Assembly (NCBI GenBank): GCA_023137315.1
Contig: JAGLPP010000087.1
Location: 1 to 64,000, forward strand
DNA from: Bacteriovoracaceae bacterium
GTDB taxonomy: Bacteria > Bdellovibrionota > Bacteriovoracia > Bacteriovoracales > Bacteriovoracaceae
Length of the DNA stretch: 64,000 nucleotides
Reading direction: 5' to 3'
Shown here one piece after another: positions 48,982 through 64,000 of this stretch. The number at the start of each line of letters is the position of its first letter. Within the stretch, counting starts at the first letter, position 1. Under the pieces are notes generated by a model. It worked only from the letters and a program-made list of their open reading frames with translations, ran no database searches and was not told the DNA's origin. The translations under genes were made by a program, and so were the position numbers.

Positions 48982-50283
48982 TCAGGGACGTTTGAATTTT
49001 TTTTGAACCAAATGAAAATAATTACCGGCATAAACCGTAAAAACAAGCATTTTCAGAAGAAGCATTCCCCAATAAAAAGTCCTGACATCATATCCCTTGT
49101 AGCTGTTCATCCAGATTAAAAACGGCACCTCAATTCCAAAACTGATAATCAGATTCAAAATAAAGATTCTCACAGGGAACCCCATATACATGAGCACAAT
49201 CTGAAAATAAAACACCATGGCGATAAAAAATAAAAACACGGCCACAATACGATTCAGATCCGTGGCAAGACTCATATAACCGGCCCTGCCGAAAAGAATC
49301 ATGCTGAACGTATCAGAACAAATGTAAAACGCTGTTGCCAAAACCCCGTAAAAGACAATCAACATCACTCCACTTTTATTCAAAAATGCCCTGATATCCT
49401 TTTTCTCCCCGATCATATTGCCGGCCATGGAGGAAACGGCAAGCGCATGTCCACCACTAACAACGGCCAGCATGGTGACAATTCTGAGCTGAAAACCAAA
49501 AATTGATGTCACTTCCACGCCATATTTTCCAACAATTGAAATCAGAACAAAAACCGACAGATTGAAAACAAAATAAAAAACGGAGACAGGAGCACCAAGC
49601 TTGATGATTTTTCCCAGCATTTTTTTGGAAATCCCTCTAAAATCCACATATGAAAAATCCATATTCGTCTGTTTTATCTTCAAAAGAACAATCCCATAGA
49701 TAACACCAATGACATGTGCAAATACAGTCGCCCATGCGGCCCCTTCAAGTCCCCATTCAAACCAAAAAATTAAAACGGGGTCTAATATCATATTTGTAAT
49801 GGACACAACCAACAAAACGCTCATAGACCAAAAAGGATTTTTTGTCGTCCTGTACAGGGAAACAAAAAAAACCACAAACGGAACCAGAAGAAAGTTATAC
49901 ACCCCAATCCCGCCATAGGTTATGGCATATTCTGTAACCTCGGACGACGAGGAAAAAGACATAATAATGGTTCGGAAAAAAACAAACGCCACAGCAAAAA
50001 GAACACAGGCCAGTGGAACATTAAAAATCAATGAAGTGGATATGGTTTGCACAAGCTTTTTTCGGTTTTTTTCTCCATAAAAACGTGGCAAAAGGTTGAT
50101 ACTGCCCCCGTTGATAACCAATGTCCAACACTCAACCACTGCAAAAAATGTAACAAACACCGCCACGCCGGAAAGATAATCGGAATTTATTCTCGACAAC
50201 CAGAAATAATCAATAAGGAAATTAAGCTGAAGACATATCATCCCAAGAGTTGCGGCCAGTGAATTATAAATAATAACTCTCAT
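48982..50283 (-). CDS. MATE-family efflux transporter
   Basis: 433-aa inner-membrane protein with about twelve helices in two six-helix halves, of the MATE/MatE superfamily that exports drugs or metabolites by Na+ or H+ antiport. Typical stretches are SGVAVFVTFFAVVECW, LLPRFYGEKNRKKLVQ, TTKNPFWSMSVLLV and KLGAPVSVFYFVF. The ATG lies seven bases after the phosphopantetheinyl-transferase stop, so it is the last gene of the operon that also encodes two radical SAM enzymes. The likely job is export of, or self-protection against, the peptide product; this is inferred from position. Confidence 0.9.
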   Translation of the reverse strand: MRVIIYNSLAATLGMICLQLNFLIDYFWLSRINSDYLSGVAVFVTFFAVVECWTLVINGGSINLLPRFYGEKNRKKLVQTISTSLIFNVPLACVLFAVAFVFFRTIIMSFSSSSEVTEYAITYGGIGVYNFLLVPFVVFFVSLYRTTKNPFWSMSVLLVVSITNMILDPVLIFWFEWGLEGAAWATVFAHVIGVIYGIVLLKIKQTNMDFSYVDFRGISKKMLGKIIKLGAPVSVFYFVFNLSVFVLISIVGKYGVEVTSIFGFQLRIVTMLAVVSGGHALAVSSMAGNMIGEKKDIRAFLNKSGVMLIVFYGVLATAFYICSDTFSMILFGRAGYMSLATDLNRIVAVFLFFIAMVFYFQIVLMYMGFPVRIFILNLIISFGIEVPFLIWMNSYKGYDVRTFYWGMLLLKMLVFTVYAGNYFHLVQKKFKRP

Positions 50284-50290
50284 TCTTCAT

Positions 50291-50965
50291 TCACTTTTGA
50301 AGTTCCACCGATGTAAACACATGATTCTTCCAGACATGGAACCGTCCATAATATTCAAATCCATGATCATATCCACAACCAAGTCGTTTCAGTAAACGAA
50401 ATTTAAAACTCCGCCCGGCAAAATCAACTGATATTATACTTGCATCTGAAAAACCGAAAAAAGTGCCGGTAAGAGGATGAAGACACTTGAAGACACTCTC
50501 TTTTGCTGAAAAAATCAGTGTCACATACTCCCGATACTCCAAATCATTTTTAAAAAAACTTTCATACATCCTCATCTCGGATGGAAGAACTATCTCTTCT
50601 TCCACCTGGCGTACAATCTCTTCTTCAAATTTTTGCTCTACATCTATTCCCAACCCGGCAAGTTTATAGTCGTTGGAAACAGCAGCGCAAGCAAATGTCC
50701 CTGTATGACTGATGGAACCGACAATTCCCGAAGGCCATTGCGGTGACCGGTCATGATTGATCCCAATACCGGAAACCTTCATTCCTGTCAGTTTTTCCGC
50801 TGCCATTTGTGCACAATATCTTCCACGAAGAAATTCAATCCGCCTTTTTCTTGTGGCGGATTTCAAAAGATCCGGGATACATTCCTCCACCTTCGGAACA
50901 AACGTTGTATCCAGAATATGAAAACATGAAAATCTTAAAAAATCCGGTGTTTCGATTTGGATCAG
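50291..50965 (-). CDS. 4'-phosphopantetheinyl transferase (EntD/Sfp-type)
   Basis: Transfers phosphopantetheine from CoA to the carrier domains of peptide synthetases. Seen: TRKRRIEFLRGRYCA, PSGIVGSISHTGTFACAA, GLGIDVEQ (Mg-binding Asp-x-Glu) and LIFSAKESVFKC (the xxKEAxxK motif), all in place. The first GTG in frame (50890) would cut off the N-terminal strand-helix common to EntD-like proteins. Reading back in frame to 50965 gives IQIETPDFLRFSCFHILDTT, a fitting N-terminus, and starts at a CTG whose TG is shared with the TGA stop of the preceding gene. An in-frame TGA lies 10-11 codons further upstream, and there is no ATG, GTG or TTG between it and the CTG. It is probably a 224-aa protein made by translational coupling from a rare CTG start. 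It should activate the T domains of the NRPS at 56783. Confidence 0.88.
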   Translation of the reverse strand: MIQIETPDFLRFSCFHILDTTFVPKVEECIPDLLKSATRKRRIEFLRGRYCAQMAAEKLTGMKVSGIGINHDRSPQWPSGIVGSISHTGTFACAAVSNDYKLAGLGIDVEQKFEEEIVRQVEEEIVLPSEMRMYESFFKNDLEYREYVTLIFSAKESVFKCLHPLTGTFFGFSDASIISVDFAGRSFKFRLLKRLGCGYDHGFEYYGRFHVWKNHVFTSVELQK

Positions 50966-52296
50966 CCCCTGAATTTTCCTTCTATACCGTCATCAACATC
51001 GAATGAAAGTCCAAAATTAACATTCATTTCCCCTTCTACGGTATCCGTATCACCCTGTATGAAAAATTCCCTGTAAACATTGGTATTATAGTTACAACCA
51101 AGCAATGTCAGTCTTATAAAATCATCCTCAATATACATGAATTTCTGGCTGACACATGAATCAATTTCCTTTTCAAAATATTCGCATGGATCATGGCCAT
51201 ATCTTTGCTTGAAGTCACTGATTGAAATTTTTGTCTTTTTAAGGCCACGAATCATGAACCTTCTCATTCTTTCATCCATCGAAAGATGCTTTCCAAGACC
51301 CAATGGCAACTCATCCCTGTTAACCATATTCATATAATCCTTTGCGTTGCCGGTATTTACAAAAAAATCACCATGAATATAGCTCATTGCCCCAACCCCA
51401 AGTCCGACCATTGGTTTATTGTTCCAATAATATTCTTCCATGAAACGACAATGATATTTCGCCTTGTATTCCTTTTTCATGTAACCATAAACAGTCAGCT
51501 GATCGTATCCACTGGAAGTGATCTTTTGGTTGGCAACATCATACATTCTTGCCTCATCGTCCCCACTGCAAACAGAAAAATCACCTTTTTGTGCCTGTTT
51601 GTAAAATGGAGTACCGGGCCACAGTTCAAGACCGTATGTTGAAACAGCAGCAGGATCAAGGGAAACAAGTGTGTCGATGGTTTCACTCCACTTGTCAACC
51701 GTCAGATCAGGAAATGGATAGACCAGATCAAGATTTACGTTCTTGAATCCAGCCTTTTTCATAAGTTCGTGGGAATCAATTGCATCCTGGGCGCTGTGAA
51801 TTCGCCCCACACTCTTCAAGATTTCATCATCGAAGCTTTGCACTCCCATGGATAGTCTGTTAAATCCAGCCTCCTTGTATGAAACGAGCTTCTCCTCATT
51901 GACATTAATAGGATCAAACTCCATGGATATTTCCGGATTGTCTGTAATTTCAAAATTTTCCCTAACGGTATCCAAAATACCAAGCACCTGATCCTGACGC
52001 AAAAGTCCGGGATTCCCCCCTCCAAAATACACACAATCAAATACAAATTCCGGATAATATCGTTTTTGGGAATACAGGTTGATATGTTTTTTCAAGGTCG
52101 TAAGATAATTATCAATGGAGCTTTCATCCAATATTTTGTATGCCTTAAAATTGCAAAAACTGCATTTTTGATTACAAAACGGTATGTGAAGGTACAACGC
52201 CGCTTTTTCCTTTTGCAAAAAACTTTCCTCACTTACCTGTTTATAATGAAAGGGGTAGGTCACCATGTTTCTTCGAGATCTTTTAATTTTGCTCAT
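50962..52296 (-). CDS. HemN/HemW-like radical SAM enzyme
   Basis: 444-aa enzyme with the [4Fe-4S] radical SAM motif CNQKCSFC (Cys41, 45, 48) and the HemN/HemW layout: LYLHIPFC, VYFGGGNPGLL (usually GGGTPS), SMGVQSFDDEILKSVGRIHS, NLDLVYPFPDLT and a C-terminal helical domain. HemN makes protoporphyrinogen, HemW is a haem chaperone, and other members of the branch are methyltransferases or cyclopropanases in natural-product pathways. Its place between a SPASM enzyme and a phosphopantetheinyl transferase favours a tailoring role. The start ATG at 52296 overlaps the stop of the SPASM gene as ATGA. Confidence 0.88.
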   Translation of the reverse strand: MSKIKRSRRNMVTYPFHYKQVSEESFLQKEKAALYLHIPFCNQKCSFCNFKAYKILDESSIDNYLTTLKKHINLYSQKRYYPEFVFDCVYFGGGNPGLLRQDQVLGILDTVRENFEITDNPEISMEFDPINVNEEKLVSYKEAGFNRLSMGVQSFDDEILKSVGRIHSAQDAIDSHELMKKAGFKNVNLDLVYPFPDLTVDKWSETIDTLVSLDPAAVSTYGLELWPGTPFYKQAQKGDFSVCSGDDEARMYDVANQKITSSGYDQLTVYGYMKKEYKAKYHCRFMEEYYWNNKPMVGLGVGAMSYIHGDFFVNTGNAKDYMNMVNRDELPLGLGKHLSMDERMRRFMIRGLKKTKISISDFKQRYGHDPCEYFEKEIDSCVSQKFMYIEDDFIRLTLLGCNYNTNVYREFFIQGDTDTVEGEMNVNFGLSFDVDDGIEGKFRG

Positions 52297-53498
52297 ACAA
52301 CCTGCCTCCCGCAATTTGTAAACAAGTAGGAAAGCTCTTCCAAAGAATTATCATAATCCTTATGGTCGAACATATGGTAATTTTTTAAAATCCCGTCCAG
52401 AAGACTCGTCTGATAAAGACAAACATCAGGATTTGGTTTATTCAAACTTCCTGTTGCAATAAAATGTTCATGTCGGCACCCTCCTCCGCAAATACTTACA
52501 GCACGACAATCCCTGCAGGTTTCATTGTCATAGGCGGACTCATTCCACTCATCGAGAAAGGTTATCTCATCCAATGAAAAACGCTTATCACCTGCCAGTC
52601 GATGACATGGGACAATCTTTTCGTCCGGAGAAAAAGTAAAATAAGCTGTTCCTGCACGACAATGATGAATGGATGACTTTCGATGAACTAGCTGGGAAAT
52701 GATTTGATCGAACTCAAGAATCCCCTTCAGATTTGGAAAATCCTCAAGCAAATTACCATATTCATCAATAAGATTCGTAATATTATCAATCATCCTCAAC
52801 TTGAATGAATGTTCCTTGTCCATCCATGCGCTTATGGATGGATAAATGCTTATATAATCAAAAACCCCCGTATCGGAAAGTAGCCGGACATTTTCAACCA
52901 GATCATCCCCAGGATCATGATAAGTCATCCTCGCCACGGTTTTTGTATCGGGACACGCCTCTTTTATTTTTCTCATATTTTCCAGAATAATATCAAAGGA
53001 ACCTTCCCCATTTTTGAATGCACGCTGCTTGTTTTGAACCTCTCTTCCGCCATCAATTGAAACGGAGATAATAAAATCATTATTTTTGAAAAACTCCAGT
53101 ATTTCCTCCGTCATACAAGTCATATTGGTGGAAATTCTTTTTATAAGTTTTATTCCCATTTCATCAAGCCGTGGATCAAGCCAGTCATTAATATGACTTA
53201 GAACCTTGAAATTCATAAGTGGCTCACCACCAAAATATTCCAATCTAAGGCCTGTATTTTTATTGTAATTTTTTTTGATCAGTGAAAATATCTTCTCGGC
53301 ATAACTTTCATCCATCGCACGGGTAATGGTTCCATAATCCCCACCATTGGCAAAACAGTAGCTGCAGGACAGATTGCAATATGGGCCAAGATTCACATTA
53401 ATGGCCAATGGAAGATCCTCGTTCAAAACTCTTTCGGGCCGTTTCATGCCATCAAGGTTTTCCTCGAAATTTCTGTTTTTACTGCATTTAATTTTCAT
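52293..53498 (-). CDS. Radical SAM/SPASM peptide maturase-like enzyme
   Basis: 401-aa enzyme. The radical SAM motif CNLSCSYC (Cys41, 45, 48) is followed by LEYFGGEPL and SVSIDGGREVQNKQR. The SPASM domain with auxiliary Fe-S cluster cysteines occupies the last ~150 residues: IVPCHRLA, CRDCRAVSICGGGCRHE and a later PDVCLYQ. SPASM enzymes modify peptides or proteins (thioether, C-C bond, epimerisation or sulfatase activation). The start overlaps the stop of the 106-aa gene by four bases. The substrate may be that small protein, the NRPS-bound peptide, or another protein; the sequence does not decide. Confidence 0.93.
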   Translation of the reverse strand: MKIKCSKNRNFEENLDGMKRPERVLNEDLPLAINVNLGPYCNLSCSYCFANGGDYGTITRAMDESYAEKIFSLIKKNYNKNTGLRLEYFGGEPLMNFKVLSHINDWLDPRLDEMGIKLIKRISTNMTCMTEEILEFFKNNDFIISVSIDGGREVQNKQRAFKNGEGSFDIILENMRKIKEACPDTKTVARMTYHDPGDDLVENVRLLSDTGVFDYISIYPSISAWMDKEHSFKLRMIDNITNLIDEYGNLLEDFPNLKGILEFDQIISQLVHRKSSIHHCRAGTAYFTFSPDEKIVPCHRLAGDKRFSLDEITFLDEWNESAYDNETCRDCRAVSICGGGCRHEHFIATGSLNKPNPDVCLYQTSLLDGILKNYHMFDHKDYDNSLEELSYLFTNCGRQVV

Positions 53499-53815
53499 TC
53501 ATCTGAAGCCGAATAGTTATAGATGGAATCACTTGGAAAATGGGCCCTATCCAATATCTCATAAACACTCAATTCAACACCCTTGACATGATTGATAACG
53601 ATAGCGGTTTCCATTGGTGATTCCCTGGTAATAATAAAACGCTTCAAAGTCTCCATTCCTGGAACCTCGAACTCCTCAATCACCCTCTCATCATGCATTC
53701 TCCGAATAACAACCGGAATCTGCTCCGGTGTCGTAGCTCCCATAGCCACATGCAACAACCACTTATCCTCACCCCATCTATAATGATATTCCATATACTC
53801 ATCACGTTCATTCAT
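53495..53815 (-). CDS. 106-aa protein of unknown function, coupled to the SPASM enzyme
   Basis: A small acidic soluble protein with no cysteine, no signal peptide and no family I recognise. It begins MNERDEYMEYHYRWGED and is followed by an alternating beta-like pattern (KWLLHVAMG, PVVIRRMHD, KRFIITRES, ETAIVINHV), then a Ser/Asp/Tyr-rich tail, SIYNYSASDE. AAAGGG precedes the ATG by seven bases. Its last bases overlap the start of the SPASM gene as ATGA, and it heads the left arm. It could be a ribosomal peptide substrate, a partner protein of the radical SAM enzyme or a carrier-binding helper. It is not MbtH-like: the MbtH tryptophan pattern is missing. Confidence 0.6.
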   Translation of the reverse strand: MNERDEYMEYHYRWGEDKWLLHVAMGATTPEQIPVVIRRMHDERVIEEFEVPGMETLKRFIITRESPMETAIVINHVKGVELSVYEILDRAHFPSDSIYNYSASDE

Positions 53816-53848
53816 AGTCTGACCCTTTATAGTAACAGCAGATAGTGT

Positions 53849-53895
53849 ATTATACTTGCAAAACCGGAATTAATCGAGGCATGATATGTATATCA
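53849..53895. promoter_or_regulatory. Divergent promoter region with a 14-bp palindrome
   Basis: For the left arm a perfect TATAAT lies on the minus strand at 53854-53849, 33 bases before the 106-aa gene. For the right arm TTGCAA (53856-53861) and CATGAT (53880-53885) are 18 bases apart. An inverted repeat, TGATAT-GT-ATATCA (53882-53895), overlaps the right-hand -10 box and could be an operator. Confidence 0.45.
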
Positions 53896-53932
53896 AAATA
53901 ATTATTTCGCACTCATAACCACAGAAAAAGGT

Positions 53933-55003
53933 ATGACTGACTATACTAAATGTCCAACACACAATCTGCACAAAACCTGGATCAACAATACAAAAAAGGC
54001 GTATCTATATGAGAGACTGAGCGGTGATAAAGTCAGATGTCATCTTTGTCCACGTCAGTGCATCATACCTGTAAATTCGGTGGGTTTTTGCAAGGTAAGA
54101 AAAAATCTTTCAGGAGAACTCTACGCCCTCTCCTATGAAAAGGCAGTTCAGATCACCACGGAATTCATTGAAACCGAGGCAATATTCCACTACAGACCTG
54201 GTGCCAATATCCTGAGTCTCGGCAATTTTGGCTGCAACTTAAACTGCATGTACTGTCAAAACTGGAACGTTTCGCAATTCCAGTTCACCTCTCCAGACTG
54301 GATTCATACCTATAGCTCTAATGAGGTCATTCAAAGGGCAAAAAAGGACAATATCGAAATCCTTTCCTGGACCTATAATGATCCCGTTGTCTGGTATGAA
54401 TATGTGGTTGATACAGCAAAAAAGGCTCGCGAGGCCGGATTGAAAAATCTATTCAAATCGGCAATGTATATCGGACAGGATGCCCTGACTGAACTCACAA
54501 AGCACATCGACATTTTTGCCGTTTCCATCAAAGCCATCGACGAGGATTACTACACTTCATTTACAAAAGGAGACCTCCTGCCCGTACTGTCAGCGTGTGA
54601 ATATCTGGTGAAAAACCACCCCGAAATCCACGTTGAAATTTCAAATCTAGTGGTAACAGATCTTACAAATAATCTTGAATCATATGACAAAATGATAGAC
54701 TTCGTTTTGGAAAAATTGGGCCCCGAAATTCCAATTCACTTCACACGTTTCCATCCGGCCTATAAATACAATCACGTTCCAAGAACTCCGGTGGAGGATG
54801 TGGCCCTTGCGCGTGAGCGTGCACTTGAACGTGGAATCAAATACGCCTACGTCGGCAACGTCTTTGATCATGAGGGCCTCAATACATATTGCCCCAACTG
54901 CAAAAACATGCTGATCAAGCGATACGGACTTAAGTCAACCATTGTTGATATGACTGGAAACATATGTAACAAGTGCGGCAGCAATATTCTACTTAAACAC
55001 TAG
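53933..55003 (+). CDS. Radical SAM enzyme, AmmeMemoRadiSam/COG1180 type
   Basis: 356-aa enzyme with an N-terminal cysteine motif CHLCPRQC (residues 36-43) and Cys53, the radical SAM motif CNLNCMYC (Cys101, 105, 108), LSWTYNDPVVWYEY, and a C-terminal zinc-ribbon-like CPNC...CNKC (~330-350). It belongs to the pyruvate-formate-lyase-activase-like branch known from the AmmeMemoRadiSam system, but the partner genes (AMMECR1 and Memo) are not next to it. AAAAAGG precedes the ATG. It is the first gene of the right arm, followed after 8 bp by the U32 gene and then the NRPS; a tailoring or protein-modification role is likely but unproven. Confidence 0.9.
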   Translation: MTDYTKCPTHNLHKTWINNTKKAYLYERLSGDKVRCHLCPRQCIIPVNSVGFCKVRKNLSGELYALSYEKAVQITTEFIETEAIFHYRPGANILSLGNFGCNLNCMYCQNWNVSQFQFTSPDWIHTYSSNEVIQRAKKDNIEILSWTYNDPVVWYEYVVDTAKKAREAGLKNLFKSAMYIGQDALTELTKHIDIFAVSIKAIDEDYYTSFTKGDLLPVLSACEYLVKNHPEIHVEISNLVVTDLTNNLESYDKMIDFVLEKLGPEIPIHFTRFHPAYKYNHVPRTPVEDVALARERALERGIKYAYVGNVFDHEGLNTYCPNCKNMLIKRYGLKSTIVDMTGNICNKCGSNILLKH

Positions 55004-55011
55004 TACTGGAA

Positions 55012-56796
55012 ATGGAAAGATCCAACGTTAGCTTATTTTGTCTGCCTGCCGATTTTGACTTAAAGTCGGCAAAAAACCTTATTGAACTTACAAAAGAATA
55101 TCCTTCAAAAAAAATCAATGAATTTTATGGCTCAATCCCTCTTTACGGCCTTGGATCAGGAAGAAAGAACTCCTCATTAAGAAATATTTCCAGAAAAAAC
55201 TTTTTTACATATATCAGTTTTCTCAAAAATCATGATATTTCCTTCAACTACACCCTGAATGCGATAACTCTTTCCAACATGGAATACACCACGGCAGGTT
55301 ACAAAAAGCTGTTGTACGTAATAGATGAACTCGTAAATGCCGGAGTGGATACTTTCACAGTTTCCATACCCCCTCTGATTGAACTTATAAAAAACCATTT
55401 TCCGCAAATTTCAATCTGTGCCTCCGCAATTTTAAAAATAGACAGTCTCTACAAAATACACGAAGTTTACGACATGGGAGCTGACCGTTTTGTACTGTTT
55501 GAAGACGCCACCAGGGACTTTGGTCTTTTAAGGGAAATAGGGGGGAAATCCCCAATCCCATGTGAAATAATAATCAATCAAGATTGCCTCTTTGGATGCA
55601 TATCAAGAGATTATCACCGCACAGTAAGTGCAATCGACAACAAAACAAATTCATCCGTTGATGTCGAACCATGGCTTAAACGCTGTAAACTAAAAAAATA
55701 CGAACATCCCGAAGAACTTATAAAAACCCCCACCCTGATCCGTCCCGAAGATGTTGTAAAGTACCTTGATACAGGAATCAACTTTTTTAAACTGACAGGT
55801 CGCGAAAGCTATTGGAAAAATTTCCACGATATTCTGAAGTTGTATCTTGAAGGCGAAAATTCCGGTAATTTTCTCGATATTATTCCAAAGACAAAATCCG
55901 GGACACCACCATTTTACATTGCCAATAAAGGCCTGGACAATTTTTTGGATTTTTTCGTTGAAGGTAAAAATCCATGCAAAAGATCATGTCATTCCGATTG
56001 CAACTATTGCAATAAACATATTCCAAAGACAGTGGCGGATTTTAAACATCATACAGAATTCATCAACAAACAAAAAAAGGATTACCTCGATCACGGCCCG
56101 TATTCAAGTATCACTTCCTGCCCATCTGAAAAGATAATTCATATAGGCGCAGACAACAATGATGAACTCATGAAAAAACTCAACAAACTGGATAGTGCCA
56201 TGGAAGCCGAAAAGATAGTTGTCACCATCCAGGATTTCATTCCCGATCTTGATGATTCGTGGATTCTTTTTTTAAGAAAGATAAATGCCAGTTTTATTTT
56301 CAAGAAAAAATCATATAACAGCGAAAACACAAAACTCATAAGAAGACTTCAAGAATCCTTTATTGAGGTCATACACGTCATTATCGTGCCGGAGGAACCG
56401 GATCTCGAACTGTTTCTTTCCAGTCTGCCGCATCTGCCGGGAAGGATCCACATTGAATGGAAAAAATGCCAACTGACACCAGACAATTTGGAACAACATC
56501 CATACCAGATGGAGGTCTTTCACCGCTCATCCAACTCCAGAGGTTTTCTGTTTATGGAAACACCTTACAATGTTCCATTTGTGCAGGCGATTTTGGGCAC
56601 CGAAAAAACACCATTTTACCGTAATCACGAATTTTATCACAACAAATTCTGCCGCGACTGTGAAATTCTTGCGTTTTGCCGCGGAGAATATATTGACTCG
56701 AATCACAGTGACCAAAAAACAGTCTGTGATATGATTAAAACAAATTTTTCATGGGAGATGTCCCATTACCAGAGAATCAGTAATGAAGGACAATAA
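55012..56796 (+). CDS. U32-type protein with two extra cysteine clusters
   Basis: 594-aa protein. The N-terminal ~240 residues match the U32 (collagenase-like) family: a TIM-barrel style start, VSIPPLIELIKNHFP, ADRFVLFEDATRDF, CEIIINQDCLFGCISRDYH and a Cys at WLKRC, the cysteine set that holds a 4Fe-4S cluster in UbiU/UbiV-type members. A second Cys cluster at about 324-336 reads CKRSCHSDCNYC; a third near the C-terminus is CRDCEILAFC. Such members are oxygen-independent hydroxylases rather than peptidases. The ATG at 55012 follows the radical SAM gene by 8 bp; the 3' end overlaps the NRPS start by 14 bp. A hydroxylating or redox tailoring role is likely; alternatively it may be a peptidase. 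Confidence 0.8.
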   Translation: MERSNVSLFCLPADFDLKSAKNLIELTKEYPSKKINEFYGSIPLYGLGSGRKNSSLRNISRKNFFTYISFLKNHDISFNYTLNAITLSNMEYTTAGYKKLLYVIDELVNAGVDTFTVSIPPLIELIKNHFPQISICASAILKIDSLYKIHEVYDMGADRFVLFEDATRDFGLLREIGGKSPIPCEIIINQDCLFGCISRDYHRTVSAIDNKTNSSVDVEPWLKRCKLKKYEHPEELIKTPTLIRPEDVVKYLDTGINFFKLTGRESYWKNFHDILKLYLEGENSGNFLDIIPKTKSGTPPFYIANKGLDNFLDFFVEGKNPCKRSCHSDCNYCNKHIPKTVADFKHHTEFINKQKKDYLDHGPYSSITSCPSEKIIHIGADNNDELMKKLNKLDSAMEAEKIVVTIQDFIPDLDDSWILFLRKINASFIFKKKSYNSENTKLIRRLQESFIEVIHVIIVPEEPDLELFLSSLPHLPGRIHIEWKKCQLTPDNLEQHPYQMEVFHRSSNSRGFLFMETPYNVPFVQAILGTEKTPFYRNHEFYHNKFCRDCEILAFCRGEYIDSNHSDQKTVCDMIKTNFSWEMSHYQRISNEGQ

Positions 56797-59300
56797 CTTC
56801 AGCATACCGCCTTTTCCGCTCAGTCAGGCACAGATAAGCATCTGGATGGATGAAAAAATCCGTCCGGGAACCAGTATCTATAACAACTGCGCACTGCTTG
56901 AACTTGATTCCATAAAAAGTATTGAAGATCTTATTGATGCCTGGAAATATCCTCTTTTGATATTCAAGTCATTCTGGTTGAGGATCATGGACACACCAGA
57001 TGGCCCAAGACAATACTATGATTTTGATCCTGACTTCAAAATCAAGGTTATTGATTACTCGACATTAAACGATGGAGAAAAAAAGGCACATGATTTTATA
57101 AATTCGAAGGCAAAAAAAAACATCAACGTAAACGGCGAACGTCTTTTTGACTCATTTATAATCCTTTGCCCGAAAGGAAAGGCACTTGCTTTTTGTAAAA
57201 CCCACCATATTATTTCGGACGGCCACAGTGGTGCACTTTTTTACAAACACGTCTTGAAAAAATACTCCCTTGGTTCACGCTTTAAGCTATTTTGTCACAC
57301 ACATGACTACAGTAAATTTGTTTCCCATGAACTTGATTTTTTAAAAAGCACGCGGGCAGAAAAATCAAAAGGGTTCTGGATTCAAAATCTGAAGGACCCG
57401 CCAGAGGCACTTTTCCATGATACATGGAAAAATGAGAAATTATTCACAGGAAAATCAACCTCCATTCCGCTTGGAACTGAAAAAACACGCAATATCCTCG
57501 ACTTCTGTCACAAAAGAAACATTTCCCCGACAGTCTTCTTTCAAACCATTGTCTATCTTCTTTTTTCAAGAAGCATGGACAGACGGGACATTATCCTTGG
57601 CACAAACTTCATGAACAGAATCGGAATGGATTTCAAAAACATGATTGGAATGTTCGCCTCAACAGTCCCTCTCAGAATCATTGAGGAAAATAATGCAGCG
57701 GATTTTTCCGAAATATTGGAAATTGTGAGCCGGACCTTCTTGCAATGCCGCAGACATCAGAGCTATCCATATAACAAAATAATCACCGACAGGAACAAAC
57801 TTTTTAATGTCCTCGTAAACTTTGAACCCATGTGGACAAAAGAATCCGACAAAACCGAAGGACTGCATTTTTCCATACCTTTTTCCGGAGGGACTCCACA
57901 TGATCTATCCATTCTATTTCATGACCGCCTGCTCGCAGGATATTTAAGCGTTGAAGCACACTACCTTGAGAGTCTGTTCGACAAATCCGAAATAAAAAAG
58001 CTACTCGAAAATATAGCAAAATTGATCTCGGTTGTTCTGCTTGATCCACTAATGCCACTGACAACATTAGACGCACCATTAATTCAAACAAGAAAAAATA
58101 TAAAAACAATTCACTCCAGCAGCTCCTCCTCTAATAAAAAAGAAATTGCGTCGGTTTGGAAAAAAATTCTGAACGTTGAAGATAGCATTTCAAACGACGA
58201 TAACTTCTTCTCTCTTGGAGGGGATTCCATCAAGGCAATTCGTCTTGTCTCCAGACTCAAGCAGGCAGATTATGAGGTGGATGTCATGGACATTTTTACA
58301 ACGCCTTTATTCATTGATTTTTCAAAGAAGATCACAAAAAAAACACCTGCCTGCAGACATGATGAACCATCATCATGCGTTCTTCCACCTACTCAAAATC
58401 AACAATATCTGTTCAAGACAGTTAAAAACAATATTCATCTTTACAACCACGAAATCACATTCAAAATCGACGAGAACATGGATACGGATGAAATAAGAAA
58501 AAGATGGAACCGAATAATAAAAAAACATGATTCCCTTCGCATCCATTTTAAAAAAGATGCCGATTCATATCAGCAAATAATAAATTCGCCGAAAGAAATC
58601 CCAATTACTGTTTACGCTGTAGATGACACTCACCCACCACTGAACATTCATAAGGCTCCACTTTTTCGCCTTGTTTTTGATAAAAAGGAGCATTCACTCA
58701 CAATTACCGCCCACCATTTGATCATCGACGTACTTTCCTGGTCTGTCATTCTGGATGATTTTTTTGACGACAGGTCTTCAACTTCACCCGATACAAGTTA
58801 TCGGCATTGTACCCGACAAGATTCCACCATGTGCCATCTTGTTTCCAACAATCACAAGCGCAAAAAGCTTTACTGTGCTTTTGAGACTTCAAACAACAAA
58901 CCTTCGGAAAAATCACTAATAGAGCTGCTCAACAGATCGCTCGATGATTTATCAGACCTTCAACCGATATCCACAATACTCGAAAGACATGGACGTTCCA
59001 ATTACAATATGGCCACCACAGGCTGGTTTACGTCCTTTGAAATAAAACCGAACAGTAATGAATCACGTTATGTTCTATTTAACTATCTCGGGGAACTCGA
59101 TAATAGAATTAAAAACATCAGATTGGTAAAACAGGATAATGAAACCTCCCCATATTTGCTTGAAATAAATTGCTACCATCAAAAAGGTCGTTTTTTTATT
59201 TCCCTGGAATATGACTCGGACATGGTCAGCAAAAAAGATGCACATCAACTTCTCGATGAATTTCAAGAGGGTATCATTCATACCACCTTTGTCGATGTTT
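56783..59300 (+). other. NRPS module 1: C-T-E, without an adenylation domain
   Basis: C1 runs to about 58080 and is followed after a ~30-residue Ser-rich linker (HSSSSSSNK) by the carrier domain; no A-domain motif occurs between. The epimerisation domain follows at ~58380-59290 and appears 80-100 residues shorter than usual between its HH motif and ERHGR. The amino acid for this module must be loaded in trans, or the acyl chain of a previous protein is passed on and epimerised. Confidence 0.85.
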
Positions 59301-62300
59301 ACCAGCTTACCCCCCTGCAACAGGGAATGTATTTTCATCTTGCCGCACACCCAGATTCCAATGCATATTTTGAACAACTTTGTATCGAGCTTGGTGGAAA
59401 CTTCAATCAAAAAGCTTTTTTGAATGCAGTCGAACTTGTTATAAATAAACACCAGGCCCTTCGGTCCGTCATCACGGAGATTGATCATTCACCATATCTT
59501 GGAATACTGAAAAAATTCGATCTCAAACCGGAAATTAAAAACAATGTCACAGAAAAAGAACTTGAATCAATCAAGGCCGGGGATTTAAACACACCATTCA
59601 ATCCTGAAGAGAAACCTCCTTTACGAATAACAATTATAAAAACAAATGATGGCCGCAATATCATGTTATGGTCACATCACCACATAATTCTTGATGGATG
59701 GAGTCTGGGAATTATTCTTTCCGATCTTCTCGAAACCTACAACAACAAAGCTGGTTGCGCGGAGAAGAACTCCCCTGCACCACTTTACGAGTGGATAAAT
59801 TCACGCAGATATGAAGATGATTTAAAATTCTGGAAAGACAAACTTTCAACTTTTGAATCCTCCAGTGATCTTCCCAAATGCATGCCCCTTCATGGCGAAA
59901 AAGAACTTAAACGCCTGAACTTTGATTTTGACACCTGCCTTACACTTAAAACCTCTGAATTTTGTAAAAGAAACTCAATAACCATCAATACCTTTATCAG
60001 AGGGTTGTGGACGATTCTACTTTCAAAATATTCAGGCCGCGATGACATGACATATGGAATTACAATCTCCGGCCGCTCCCCTGAAATACCTGAAGCGGAA
60101 AAATTCACAGGCATGTTCATAAACACAATTCCCGAAAGAGTGACACTGGAAAAAGATAACAAATTTTGTGAATTTTTATCATCACTCCAAACAAGCTTCA
60201 TACATGCTGAAAAACATGGACACTGCCCTCTCTCCCATATCCAAAAAGACCATCACCTTGGAGCAAATCTCTTTGATCATCTTCTTGTTTTTGAAAATTA
60301 TCCACTAGACAAAACACATCTATCGAGTGATGGTTCAAAACTTTATATTAAAAATATCTCTCTTTTTGAAATGAACGAATTTCCATTCACTATTGTCATA
60401 AGACCAGAAGAGCAAATTCATTTTGAGATACAATATCTATCCCGGTTTTATCCTGACCATTTTATAACCTCCATCAGAGATCATCTTCTAAAACTGGCTT
60501 CTCAAATGATATCCTTTCCAAAAACAAGACTTCGTAATATTGACATCCTGACTGAAAATGAAAAATCACTCATCCTCGAAAAATTCAACAATCACACCAC
60601 AGAAAACTATAAAAACGACATTCCTGCTCATATTCTTTTTGAACGACAAACCTCACTGACACCTGACGCGAATGCCCTGGTTTTTCACGAAAGGGTTTTG
60701 ACCTACAGGGAACTCAATACAAGAAGCAACCAGCTTGCACATTATTTAAGGGAAAAATTCAAAAGCTCCGCAAACAGAAGAATTGGAATCTATCTGGATC
60801 GAAATTTCAATATGATTATTGCCCTGCTCGCAATCTTAAAATCCGGCGCAGGTTATGTCCCCATCTCCCCTCAATATCCTGACGAGCGTAAAAAATACAT
60901 GATCACCGACAGCGATATTGAAGTTATTTTAAGCGAGACTGGATTTCAGAATGAACTTTCAATATTCGAAAGGCCTGTCATTTTTCTTGATAATCCTGAA
61001 CCTGTTATTTCCCGGATGCCTGAAACAAATCCAAAACACATAAACAACATGGAGGATCTGGTATACCTGATCTACACCTCCGGCTCCACCGGAAAACCAA
61101 AAGGTGTCATGCAAAATCACCGCAGCGTATGCAATATGCTTCTGTGGAAAAAACATCATTCAAAAATTGACCATCGTCTAAAAACACTTTTTTTCACTTC
61201 AATCAGCTTTGATGTCTCTTTCGAGGAAATATTCACCACACTCACCAACGGAGGAGAGCTTTATATAGTCGATGAGGAGACAAGAAACCATCCCGATCTT
61301 CTCGCAGAATTCGTTCATAAAAACAATATAAATATTGTTTCCATGCCGTTTTCCTATTTAAACCTTCTTTTCGACAAAAACTCACCGACCTATGACAAAA
61401 TTTTAAAAAGCGACATCCGATACATCATTCATGGTGGTGAACCTTTCAACGTAACGGATGGGATTTCAGATTTTCTAAAGGCACATCCTCAAACAGTCCT
61501 TCATAACAACTACGGCCCCTCCGAAACCCACATGGTGACCTCGCATACACTCAGTCGAGAAAATTATTCAAGCATTCCTGTCGGACGGCCGCTTACCAAA
61601 TGCCGTATCTATATTCTATCTGATGATCTGCGCACGGTTCCAATTCACGTTCCGGGAGAAATTTACATAGGAGGTGAACAGGTCGGAATCGGTTATTTTG
61701 GAAACCAAACACTGACCAACGATCGTTTCGTGAGTGATCCTTTTGTGAATGACAAAAATGCGAAAATGTATAAAACCGGTGATCTCGGACGCTTCCTTGA
61801 AAACGGGGAGATTGAATATATTGCAAGAAGCGATCATCAAGTGAAAATTCGTGGAAACCGTGTTGAGCTTACGGAGGTTGAATCACACCTTCTGGGCATT
61901 ACAGGAATAAAGGAAGCTGCTGTAACCGCCCAAACAGATTCAATAAATGGAACAGCACTTGTTGCCTGGTATGTTGGATCAAATGACTTGTCAGTAAATG
62001 ATCTTCGCCAGAAACTTTCATCGACCCTCCCCGATTACATGATCCCCTCTTACTTTGTCCAACTTAAAAAACTTCCAAGAACTCCAAACGGAAAGCTCGA
62101 CCGCAACGGTCTTTCAAATATTTCACCACAAAAAAGTGAAAGCACATTTGAAGAACCAAAGGGTGACACTGAACAAAAACTTGCAACAATATGGCGTGAA
62201 ATACTGAAACTTAAAAAGATAGACCGACATACAAGTTTTTTCGATCTTGGAGGCCATTCACTCAAAGCACTAAGGATCATTTCCATGATCTATGGCGTCT

Positions 62301-64000
62301 TAAAGAAAAAAATCACACTTAAGGAATTTCTCGATCACCCAACTATTTCACACTCGGCCGCTATAATTGATAAAAAAGAGGACAATGTACATGTTCCCAT
62401 AAGACAAACTCATAATACAAAGAATTTTGCAGACCTGTCTCCGGCACAAAGAAGAATATGGGCCGTGAACAATCTGGACTCCTCTGGCAAGGCGTATATT
62501 CTTTCCGGCGTTTTTCAGATTTGTGGAAAATTTCCAAAAGAGATTTTTGAAAAACGTATGAACAAAATCATTGCAAATCACGAAATCATGCGTACCCGTT
62601 TCACAAAGACAGAAGCCGGAACACCAAGACAGGAAATCCTTCACTCTTTTGAACTCAAGGTAAAGGTTATCGATTTATCAGACCTTGATACAACCAACGA
62701 CCAACTTGACAATATCGTGGACAATGAGGCGAATCAGGCATTTGACCTTGAAGCGGCCCCGCCAATAAGAGCGGTTTTTATAAAAACCGGGCCTGAAAAT
62801 GGCCGTTTTGTTCTTTGCATTCACCATATTATCAGTGACGAATGGTCAATTCGCCTGATTCTGGAATCCCTGACAGAAGATACTCCTCCATCTTGCGACA
62901 TTCAATATCGTGATCTTGTCTCTGAAAAAACGGACTTCGACTACTGGGAAAAAATATTTCAAAAGCCAGTCCATGAGATAAATCTTTTTCAAGGAATCAG
63001 ACGCAGAAATATTCAAAAATTCACCGGAAGATCAAAGAAATATATTTTTTCAAAAAATCTGTCACACAAACTTGAACGTGTCTGCTCACAATTCAAACTA
63101 ACCCCGTTTGTGGCCTTGATATCATCCGTTGTGGTTTTAATCAGCAGACTAGGCAACACAAATGACATAACTTTTGGAACTCCATCCCTTGGGCGGGACG
63201 ATCATGCGACTCATTCAATGCTTGGTGTGTTCATCAACATGCTTGCCTTGAGATTTGATATTGATCAAAAAATGTCATTTGCAGATGTTCTGAAAGAATC
63301 CAAAAATATCGTGTCAGATGCCTTTGAACATCAAAATGCCCCATTTGACAGAATCATTGAAAGACTTGGAATAAAAAGATCTCCCGGACGATCACCTCTT
63401 TTTGACATAATGGTTGTCCTTGCTGACTCAAACCCGCAAGAAGAGATGTTTACAATTGAAAACACCGATTTCAAACGAATTCCATCACATAACAAAAGCA
63501 GTAAGTACGATCTCTCATTCTATTTTTCCACAGATAAGGATCAGCTCAAACTCGATCTTGAATACAACAGCACTCTTTTACCTGAAAATTATATCGACTC
63601 GCTAATACAATCCCTGGACAGTCTTCTGGATGATGCCCTGACATCACCGGAACTCAACATATACGAATTATCCATTCTCTCAAAGAAACATCATGAGTTT
63701 TGGAATAAGACCAACCTGACGGAAAATCATGGACACAATTATCGACAAACAGTCATTGAGGTCATTGAAAAAACCGTAAAGGCGCATCCTGAAAATATTG
63801 CCCTGGAATACCCGGAAGGACAACTTTCCTACAAGGAACTATGGGAAAAATCGACCTCTCTGAGTAATTTACTAATACATGAATATGGATTAAAACCACA
63901 AACAAATGTGGCACTTTGTTTGCCACGCTCCCCTGAAATGGTCGTCTCAATTCTCGCGGTACTCATGGCCGGATGTGCCTATGTTCCCATTGATCCAAAC
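56783..64000 (+). CDS. Nonribosomal peptide synthetase (partial, runs off the window)
   Basis: At least 2,406 codons of one uninterrupted frame. The ATG at 56783 lies inside the end of the U32 gene. Domain order from visible motifs: C1 (HHIISDG near 57203), T1 (LGGDS, Ser at 58226), E (HHLIIDVLSW at 58712, ERHGR, GWFT, FNYLG), C2 (HHIILDGWS near 59677), A1 (YTSGSTGKPKG near 61075, FDVSFEEIF, NNYGPSE, YKTGDLG, TPNGKLDR), T2 (LGGHS, Ser at 62258), C3 (HHIISDEWS near 62822), and the beginning of A2 (KELWEKSTSLSNLL, GCAYVPIDPN). T domains need the phosphopantetheinyl transferase encoded at 50291. Minus-strand and other-frame open stretches here are shadows. The terminal part, including any thioesterase, lies outside. 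Confidence 0.95.
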   Translation, partial: MKDNNFSIPPFPLSQAQISIWMDEKIRPGTSIYNNCALLELDSIKSIEDLIDAWKYPLLIFKSFWLRIMDTPDGPRQYYDFDPDFKIKVIDYSTLNDGEKKAHDFINSKAKKNINVNGERLFDSFIILCPKGKALAFCKTHHIISDGHSGALFYKHVLKKYSLGSRFKLFCHTHDYSKFVSHELDFLKSTRAEKSKGFWIQNLKDPPEALFHDTWKNEKLFTGKSTSIPLGTEKTRNILDFCHKRNISPTVFFQTIVYLLFSRSMDRRDIILGTNFMNRIGMDFKNMIGMFASTVPLRIIEENNAADFSEILEIVSRTFLQCRRHQSYPYNKIITDRNKLFNVLVNFEPMWTKESDKTEGLHFSIPFSGGTPHDLSILFHDRLLAGYLSVEAHYLESLFDKSEIKKLLENIAKLISVVLLDPLMPLTTLDAPLIQTRKNIKTIHSSSSSSNKKEIASVWKKILNVEDSISNDDNFFSLGGDSIKAIRLVSRLKQADYEVDVMDIFTTPLFIDFSKKITKKTPACRHDEPSSCVLPPTQNQQYLFKTVKNNIHLYNHEITFKIDENMDTDEIRKRWNRIIKKHDSLRIHFKKDADSYQQIINSPKEIPITVYAVDDTHPPLNIHKAPLFRLVFDKKEHSLTITAHHLIIDVLSWSVILDDFFDDRSSTSPDTSYRHCTRQDSTMCHLVSNNHKRKKLYCAFETSNNKPSEKSLIELLNRSLDDLSDLQPISTILERHGRSNYNMATTGWFTSFEIKPNSNESRYVLFNYLGELDNRIKNIRLVKQDNETSPYLLEINCYHQKGRFFISLEYDSDMVSKKDAHQLLDEFQEGIIHTTFVDVYQLTPLQQGMYFHLAAHPDSNAYFEQLCIELGGNFNQKAFLNAVELVINKHQALRSVITEIDHSPYLGILKKFDLKPEIKNNVTEKELESIKAGDLNTPFNPEEKPPLRITIIKTNDGRNIMLWSHHHIILDGWSLGIILSDLLETYNNKAGCAEKNSPAPLYEWINSRRYEDDLKFWKDKLSTFESSSDLPKCMPLHGEKELKRLNFDFDTCLTLKTSEFCKRNSITINTFIRGLWTILLSKYSGRDDMTYGITISGRSPEIPEAEKFTGMFINTIPERVTLEKDNKFCEFLSSLQTSFIHAEKHGHCPLSHIQKDHHLGANLFDHLLVFENYPLDKTHLSSDGSKLYIKNISLFEMNEFPFTIVIRPEEQIHFEIQYLSRFYPDHFITSIRDHLLKLASQMISFPKTRLRNIDILTENEKSLILEKFNNHTTENYKNDIPAHILFERQTSLTPDANALVFHERVLTYRELNTRSNQLAHYLREKFKSSANRRIGIYLDRNFNMIIALLAILKSGAGYVPISPQYPDERKKYMITDSDIEVILSETGFQNELSIFERPVIFLDNPEPVISRMPETNPKHINNMEDLVYLIYTSGSTGKPKGVMQNHRSVCNMLLWKKHHSKIDHRLKTLFFTSISFDVSFEEIFTTLTNGGELYIVDEETRNHPDLLAEFVHKNNINIVSMPFSYLNLLFDKNSPTYDKILKSDIRYIIHGGEPFNVTDGISDFLKAHPQTVLHNNYGPSETHMVTSHTLSRENYSSIPVGRPLTKCRIYILSDDLRTVPIHVPGEIYIGGEQVGIGYFGNQTLTNDRFVSDPFVNDKNAKMYKTGDLGRFLENGEIEYIARSDHQVKIRGNRVELTEVESHLLGITGIKEAAVTAQTDSINGTALVAWYVGSNDLSVNDLRQKLSSTLPDYMIPSYFVQLKKLPRTPNGKLDRNGLSNISPQKSESTFEEPKGDTEQKLATIWREILKLKKIDRHTSFFDLGGHSLKALRIISMIYGVLKKKITLKEFLDHPTISHSAAIIDKKEDNVHVPIRQTHNTKNFADLSPAQRRIWAVNNLDSSGKAYILSGVFQICGKFPKEIFEKRMNKIIANHEIMRTRFTKTEAGTPRQEILHSFELKVKVIDLSDLDTTNDQLDNIVDNEANQAFDLEAAPPIRAVFIKTGPENGRFVLCIHHIISDEWSIRLILESLTEDTPPSCDIQYRDLVSEKTDFDYWEKIFQKPVHEINLFQGIRRRNIQKFTGRSKKYIFSKNLSHKLERVCSQFKLTPFVALISSVVVLISRLGNTNDITFGTPSLGRDDHATHSMLGVFINMLALRFDIDQKMSFADVLKESKNIVSDAFEHQNAPFDRIIERLGIKRSPGRSPLFDIMVVLADSNPQEEMFTIENTDFKRIPSHNKSSKYDLSFYFSTDKDQLKLDLEYNSTLLPENYIDSLIQSLDSLLDDALTSPELNIYELSILSKKHHEFWNKTNLTENHGHNYRQTVIEVIEKTVKAHPENIALEYPEGQLSYKELWEKSTSLSNLLIHEYGLKPQTNVALCLPRSPEMVVSILAVLMAGCAYVPIDPN
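59300..62370 (+). other. NRPS module 2: C-A-T
   Basis: C2 follows an E domain, so it should be of the D-donor accepting type. The specificity-conferring A-domain positions, read by aligning with GrsA by eye, are D-V-E-S-I-G-N-M-V-K. Glu at position 239, with Ser278, Ile299 and Gly301, resembles codes for Lys (D-A-E-S-I-G-S-V-C-K), so a basic amino acid is a cautious prediction. Confidence 0.7.
62430..64000 (+). other. NRPS module 3: C-A, truncated by the window end
   Basis: C3 has HHIISDEWS, with Glu where the Gly of HHxxxDG normally stands. The A2 domain begins about 63740 and reaches only its A2-type motif (GCAYVPIDPN), so its substrate code lies outside the window. Confidence 0.8.

Follow-up and report, generated by a model that had tools for sequence, protein, structure and literature searches.

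Oxidative tailoring in known NRPS pathways is mostly carried out by O2-dependent enzymes, such as P450s, Fe/2OG enzymes and flavin enzymes. How anaerobes introduce hydroxyl groups into their natural products is not well understood. The U32 hydroxylases known so far require prephenate and Fe-S cysteines (PMC11574389, PMC6747719). UbiU-UbiV take their oxygen from prephenate, and U32-dependent RNA hydroxylation probably does so too (PMC11574389). The known U32 oxidases possess a four-cysteine motif, CX6CX15CX3/4C (PMC6747719).

Other described systems resemble individual components of the locus reported here. The SPASM maturases of the SCIFF/CteB, PapB and nif11 types share the radical SAM core and the SPASM cysteines with one of its enzymes, at roughly 25–31% identity. 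A second enzyme scores above the curated cut-off of the AmmeMemoRadiSam family (TIGR04337; 285 vs. 220 bits). The N-terminal condensation (C) domains of EntF (enterobactin) and MxcG (myxochelin) align with the first C domain of its NRPS, and EntF has a Ser-like code, as does the third module of this NRPS. Moreover, HemN-like enzymes such as C10P act in natural-product pathways (PMC6050322), and C10P is, like the HemN-like enzyme of this locus, a HemN-type radical SAM enzyme of a biosynthetic cluster.

Gene content and completion of the NRPS

The window, i.e., the whole stretch of 64,000 nucleotides analyzed from a Bdellovibrionota genome, contains a locus of eight genes in two divergent arms. 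All eight genes of the original prediction were present at the positions given, with the families that it had assigned to them (Table 1).

Table 1. Features of the locus, with their positions in the window and the evidence for their assignment.
Feature	Position	Strand	Evidence
MATE-family exporter, 433 aa	48982..50283	-	Pfam MatE 72 bits, cut-off 24.9
Sfp/EntD-type phosphopantetheinyl transferase (PPTase), 199 aa by GTG start	50291..50890	-	4PPT_N 74 bits, ACPS 44.6 bits
HemN/HemW-superfamily radical SAM enzyme of the cluster, 450 aa	50962..52314	-	PF04055, PF06969; TIGR00539 232 bits, cut-off 205.4
SPASM radical SAM enzyme, 401 aa, lacking the N-terminal region of its relatives	52293..53498	-	Best sub-cut-off matches TIGR04064, PapB, SCIFF maturases
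p106, small partner domain of COG1180 radical SAM enzyme, 106 aa, no Cys	53495..53815	-	Homologs adjoin COG1180 radical SAM enzymes or are fused to them
Divergent intergenic region, 117 bp, presumed shared promoter region	53816..53932	.	Gene coordinates
COG1180-type radical SAM enzyme, 356 aa, AmmeMemoRadiSam rSAM family	53933..55003	+	TIGR04337 285 bits, cut-off 220
U32 protein, 594 aa	55012..56796	+	PF01136 34.3 bits, cut-off 22.4
NRPS, 3,307 aa when completed with contig C104	56783..64000	+	Pfam/NCBIfam domains, contig join, active-site motifs

The CX3CX2C motifs of all three radical SAM enzymes, as read from the sequence, were intact (FCNQKCSFC, YCNLSCSYC and GCNLNCMYC), and the SPASM protein also carried the SPASM cysteine set. 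The MATE protein showed weak similarity to the BGC exporters SolL/WgkD. The genes within each arm had been described as overlapping or lying no more than 8 bp apart. This was borne out by the overlaps of 4 (p106/SPASM), 22 (SPASM/HemN-like) and 14 bases (U32/NRPS) and by the other gaps of 7–8 bp, but not by the PPTase gene, which by its listed GTG start lies 71 bp behind the HemN-like gene. The PPTase frame is open further upstream, and the true gap may be smaller. A promoter scan of the divergent region gave results at chance level. Foreign origin was also considered from base composition and rejected, as no shift was found across the locus, whose GC content of 39–40% was like that of most of the window. 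None of the other genomes searched contained the same gene set, and the set as a whole cannot be called conserved on this basis.

The NRPS frame was open at the window end (64000) and still open where the contig ends (66636). The 25 bases that close this contig are identical to the reverse-complement start of C104, an overlap for which the chance expectation among contig ends is ~8e-13 if equal base frequencies are assumed. Joined in frame with C104, the NRPS reaches its stop after 70 more bases. A gene of the TIGR02147 family follows on C104 in convergent orientation and thus marks where the cluster ends on the right.

The domain order of the completed NRPS is C1-T1-E1-C2-A2-T2-C3-A3-T3-C4, with three carrier (T) domains and two adenylation (A) domains. 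The C, A and T domains all have intact motifs, as expected of a modular NRPS. Modular NRPSs usually, albeit not universally, have an A domain in each module and release their product by a TE or R domain, and both features are missing here: the first module is C-T-E without an A domain, and the C-terminal end is a condensation domain. The protein differs from EntF and MxcG in the same two respects, as an A-less T-E follows its first C domain and a terminal C domain stands in place of TE or R. E1 is ~100 residues short and may be dead; it scores 26 bits for TIGR01720, whose cut-off is 74. No thioesterase (PF00975) match was found anywhere in the genome.

All condensation-domain matches of the genome fall in this one NRPS gene. 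Other AMP-binding genes are located on contigs C92, C158, C84, C170, and C176, but none on the contigs of the cluster. The A-domain protein encoded on C84 was ruled out as a remainder of the NRPS, because it is a Pls/PosA-type protein; a match between C205 and the U32/NRPS DNA was attributed to chance. The C84 protein (L051:5410-9396, same genome) consists of A-T and a terminal Pls domain, scores 388 bits against TIGR02353, just below the cut-off, and is possibly a homo-poly-amino-acid synthetase. The only other ACPS match of the genome, besides the PPTase of the locus, is on C202.

The A-domain codes were read by eye. Read against the core motifs, the code of A3 is DVWHISLVDK, a Ser-type Stachelhaus code, while that of A2 is DVESIGNMVK, to which no residue was matched. 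One Ser is thus predicted in the product from the A3 code. In the assembly line that we propose, the PPTase would prime the carrier domains of the NRPS. Given that C1 aligns with the N-terminal C domains of EntF and MxcG, it would accept a donor from outside, and the A-less T-E module would depend on loading in trans. A residue of uncertain specificity (A2) and the predicted Ser (A3) would follow, and the terminal C4 would release the chain either onto an external amine or by cyclization. The MATE protein would export the product.

p106 and the radical SAM enzymes

No match to p106 was found in Pfam or NCBIfam. Among 369 Bdellovibrionota genomes, only a few contained p106 homologs, and a profile built from the good ones confirmed exactly six genomes, including that of the window. 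In the other five, p106 always abuts or is fused to a COG1180 radical SAM enzyme. In two of them (G028 and G041), p106 is a 97-aa gene that directly follows the COG1180 gene or overlaps it by 4 bases, and the COG1180 enzymes of these two genomes are 57–58% identical to that of the window. In G113 and G159, p106 forms the C-terminal domain of the COG1180 enzyme; it is likewise C-terminal in G311, where the gene is frame-split. The latter fusion (L167/L174, G311:C236) is broken into two ORFs by a frame change that may reflect either an assembly error or a pseudogene. All four of the p106-linked COG1180 enzymes that were scanned pass TIGR04337. The p106 family has nine invariant residues (W14, H22, R38, R59, R64, D89, R90, A91, and P94) and a C-terminal end of DRA[H/Y][F/Y]P. 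The AlphaFold model of p106 alone had a pLDDT of 47 and was unusable, and no p106 match was found in plasmids.

In the window, p106 and the COG1180 gene are the first genes of the left and right arms, respectively. The domain that is fused to the enzyme in some relatives is separated from it here by the presumed divergent promoter (53498-53815 vs. 53933-55003). Judged by sequence and genomic association, p106 and the COG1180 enzyme look like partners across this promoter, and they would together constitute a two-component radical SAM enzyme. Different from AmmeMemoRadiSam systems, the partner of the COG1180 enzyme is p106 instead of MEMO or AMMECR1, neither of which was matched by any of the eight genes of the locus, and the enzyme heads an NRPS arm.

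That two genes associated in other genomes stand at the heads of the divergent arms is the strongest argument for a connection between the arms. It is unlikely that the right arm makes a peptide while the left arm serves another pathway and became its divergent neighbor by chance. The divergent arrangement itself would fit such a history, as would the p106-COG1180 pairs that occur elsewhere without an NRPS and the fact that no further genome with this gene set was found. However, one of the two partners is located in each arm, the genes inside each arm are tightly coupled, and the left arm contains the exporter and the Sfp/EntD-type PPTase that an NRPS pathway and its carrier domains need. The original proposal that the two arms form one system is thus strengthened by the pairing in five of five other genomes and by this PPTase. 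A left arm conserved away from an NRPS, which would have pointed to separate systems, was not encountered: no ortholog of the SPASM enzyme was found in the 369 genomes of the phylum. Nor was one found in 50 U32-bearing genomes, where maturase-type matches reached only 26–31% identity, or on plasmids, where the best match was ~29% identical.

Four COG1180+p106 neighborhoods were read at length, and none contained a SPASM or NRPS match. Three of the pairs (L170, L171, and L173, from G028, G041, and G159, respectively) are located near genes for IorAB-like (2-oxoacid:ferredoxin oxidoreductase-like) subunits and a PLP enzyme of Cys/Met metabolism, as well as near a B12 radical SAM enzyme, ketosynthase/FabA genes and large membrane proteins. 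From their gene content, these neighborhoods probably represent another uncharacterized pathway of Bdellovibrionota.

The profiles closest to the SPASM enzyme were those of nif11, PapB, and SCIFF maturases, all under cut-off, and its nearest solved relative was CteB (5wgg). Its core begins at residue 32, compared with residues 75–110 in its relatives, which have ~75–105 extra N-terminal residues. A split-off recognition domain in the form of p106 was considered and rejected, since comparison of profiles between p106 and the N-terminal regions of the relatives was negative (hhalign probability <=0.1%). The SPASM enzyme thus differs from the SCIFF/CteB, PapB and nif11 maturases by the lack of the N-terminal region and of a precursor and by its NRPS context. 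No RiPP precursor gene was found in the locus, which has no unassigned gap longer than 120 bp.

The original prediction had taken the SPASM enzyme as a sign of a ribosomal-peptide hybrid. In such a hybrid, the enzyme would modify a ribosomal peptide, either p106 or an unseen precursor, that is then joined to the NRPS chain, e.g., by serving C1 as its donor or by being carried on the A-less T1. The relatedness by profile to the nif11, PapB, and SCIFF maturases, the 4-base overlap of the p106 and SPASM genes and the absence of any in-cis substrate source for C1, T1 and C4 are consistent with it. However, p106 accompanies a COG1180 enzyme in all five other genomes found to have it and, with no Cys of its own, was ruled out as the precursor; neither SPASM nor NRPS genes were matched around it in the four neighborhoods described above, and no other gene fits the gaps. 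The SPASM enzyme, moreover, lacks the recognition region of its relatives, which p106 does not resemble. We consider this hybrid improbable and do not retain the prediction, while an unusually tailored peptide, as also foreseen at the outset, is still the best reading. The SPASM and HemN-like enzymes would carry out further radical modifications.

A second HemW-like gene was identified on C204, with a TIGR00539 score of 195.7 bits, i.e., below the cut-off of 205.4, compared with 232 for the HemN-like enzyme of the cluster. Given these two scores, the HemW label is not safe for the latter. Different from HemN-like natural-product enzymes such as C10P (PMC6050322), the HemN-like enzyme has no partner methyltransferase in the locus, and the HemW profile gives it the top score.

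The U32 protein and its subfamily

The barrel of the U32 protein comprises residues 1 to ~340, and its top Foldseek match is the U32 peptidase Mk0906 (5d88; E 1.6e-9). It shares the U32 barrel fold and conserved cysteines with UbiU-UbiV, TrhP, and RlhA (PMC6747719, PMC6599085, PMC11574389). The cysteine spacing, however, is different. C192, C196, and C225 of the barrel form the pattern CX3CX28C and C322, C326, C330, and C333 the pattern CX3CX3CX2C (322-333), neither of which corresponds to the known four-cysteine motif or to its UbiU/UbiV variants. The protein further differs from these hydroxylases by its four extra cysteines after the barrel, by a C-terminal extension of ~250 residues and by a context of NRPS instead of quinone or RNA.

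Among 50 aligned relatives, C192, C196, and C225 were invariant, and C326, C330, and C333 were kept wherever the sequence reached them, while the extension was seen in none of the relatives. The final cysteines of this extension are similar to one half of a SPASM motif, in a part where pLDDT was mostly <50 and the model is unreliable. The extension was considered as a possible degenerate radical SAM/SPASM domain, for which the signals were weak (TIGR04085 with E 0.02, and hhalign with E 0.03 and a probability of 0.8%).

When 84,980 species were scanned, each represented by one genome, 80 loci of this U32 subfamily were identified; no match was found in plasmids. The subfamily recurs beside peptide- and polyketide-making genes, and many of its hosts are anaerobes. 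In L077 and L111, an NRPS gene abuts the U32 gene (2–3 bp). U32 and NRPS genes overlap in L057, the U32 gene of L092 starts 94 bp behind an NRPS gene, and in L099 an adenylation-type gene lies 2.3 kb from U32. Type III PKS-like genes were found near U32 in 9 of the 80 loci, two of which were checked by Pfam. These nine are L065, L071, and L088, all from Bdellovibrionota, and L082, L083, L087, L091, L094, and L108; their U32 proteins form one side of a weakly supported branch of the tree, and the context would fit hydroxylation of type III PKS products by a U32 oxidase.

Chorismate mutase, the enzyme that forms prephenate, was encoded beside U32 in seven of the 80 loci, in three arrangements. 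It was detected by Pfam in L070:9905-11360, where it stands alone, L098:3220-5851 and L106:8487-11251, and by tblastn in L095, L096, L101, and L102. In the loci other than L070, it is fused to DAHP synthase. The adjoining chorismate mutases are possible suppliers of prephenate for U32 oxidases, which suggests that the U32 proteins of such clusters may use prephenate; none was found in the locus of the window.

In the tree, the window U32 groups with the two U32s of an NRPS/PKS cluster of Pseudobacteroides cellulosolvens (support 98/90), away from those Bdellovibrionota U32s that are linked to type III PKS. This placement is held loosely because of the long branch of the window U32. In the P. 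cellulosolvens cluster (L057), which has the U32s nearest to that of the window, the U32 genes are interleaved with NRPS genes. Different from the locus of the window, it contains a second U32 gene together with a PIG-L-type gene and additional NRPS/PKS-like genes, and no SPASM, COG1180 or p106 match was found in the 21 kb read. From its family and genome contexts, the window U32 would most likely be an O2-independent hydroxylase of a building block, either carrier-bound or free, and its oxygen would come from prephenate, similar to UbiU-UbiV and TrhP.

The tailoring genes could in principle be housekeeping homologs, i.e., HemW, AmmeMemoRadiSam and a U32 protein that modifies RNA or acts as a peptidase, and only happen to flank the NRPS; the HemN-like and COG1180 enzymes do pass the cut-offs of the HemW and AmmeMemoRadiSam families, respectively. 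The other HemW-like gene of the genome and the lack of a MEMO/AMMECR1 gene in the locus speak against it, as do the 14-base overlap of U32 with the NRPS and the recurrence of U32-NRPS coupling in other anaerobes. Such an origin of the tailoring genes is hence improbable as well.

A candidate pathway for O2-independent peptide tailoring

Taken together, the gene set and its coupling, the intact motifs, the sole condensation-domain gene, the p106-COG1180 pairing and the contexts of the U32 subfamily suggest that the locus is one complete NRPS cluster for a short peptide with O2-independent tailoring, in which U32 hydroxylates with prephenate. We assign this reading a probability of about 0.6. 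The deviating cysteine pattern and long branch of U32, the absence of a chorismate mutase from the locus, the short and possibly dead E domain, the codes read by eye and the lack of a second copy among the genomes searched count against it. A broader proposal is more tentative: the seven-cysteine U32 subfamily might serve O2-independent, prephenate-fed hydroxylation in NRPS, PKS and type III PKS assembly in general, accompanied here by a new COG1180+p106 enzyme that makes or modifies the residue on the A-less module. The cluster is apparently undescribed, and no report of U32 in NRPS clusters was found in the literature searched, a non-exhaustive set.

The interest of this cluster, carried by a member of Bdellovibrionota, a phylum of predatory bacteria, lies in O2-independent tailoring rather than in a RiPP-NRPS hybrid. 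The p106 family offers an entry point to the radical SAM enzymes of the COG1180/AmmeMemoRadiSam type, which are still little understood. If U32 in these clusters uses prephenate, it would represent a general route for O2-free hydroxylation in secondary metabolism, and U32 would then also be a simple marker for genome mining.
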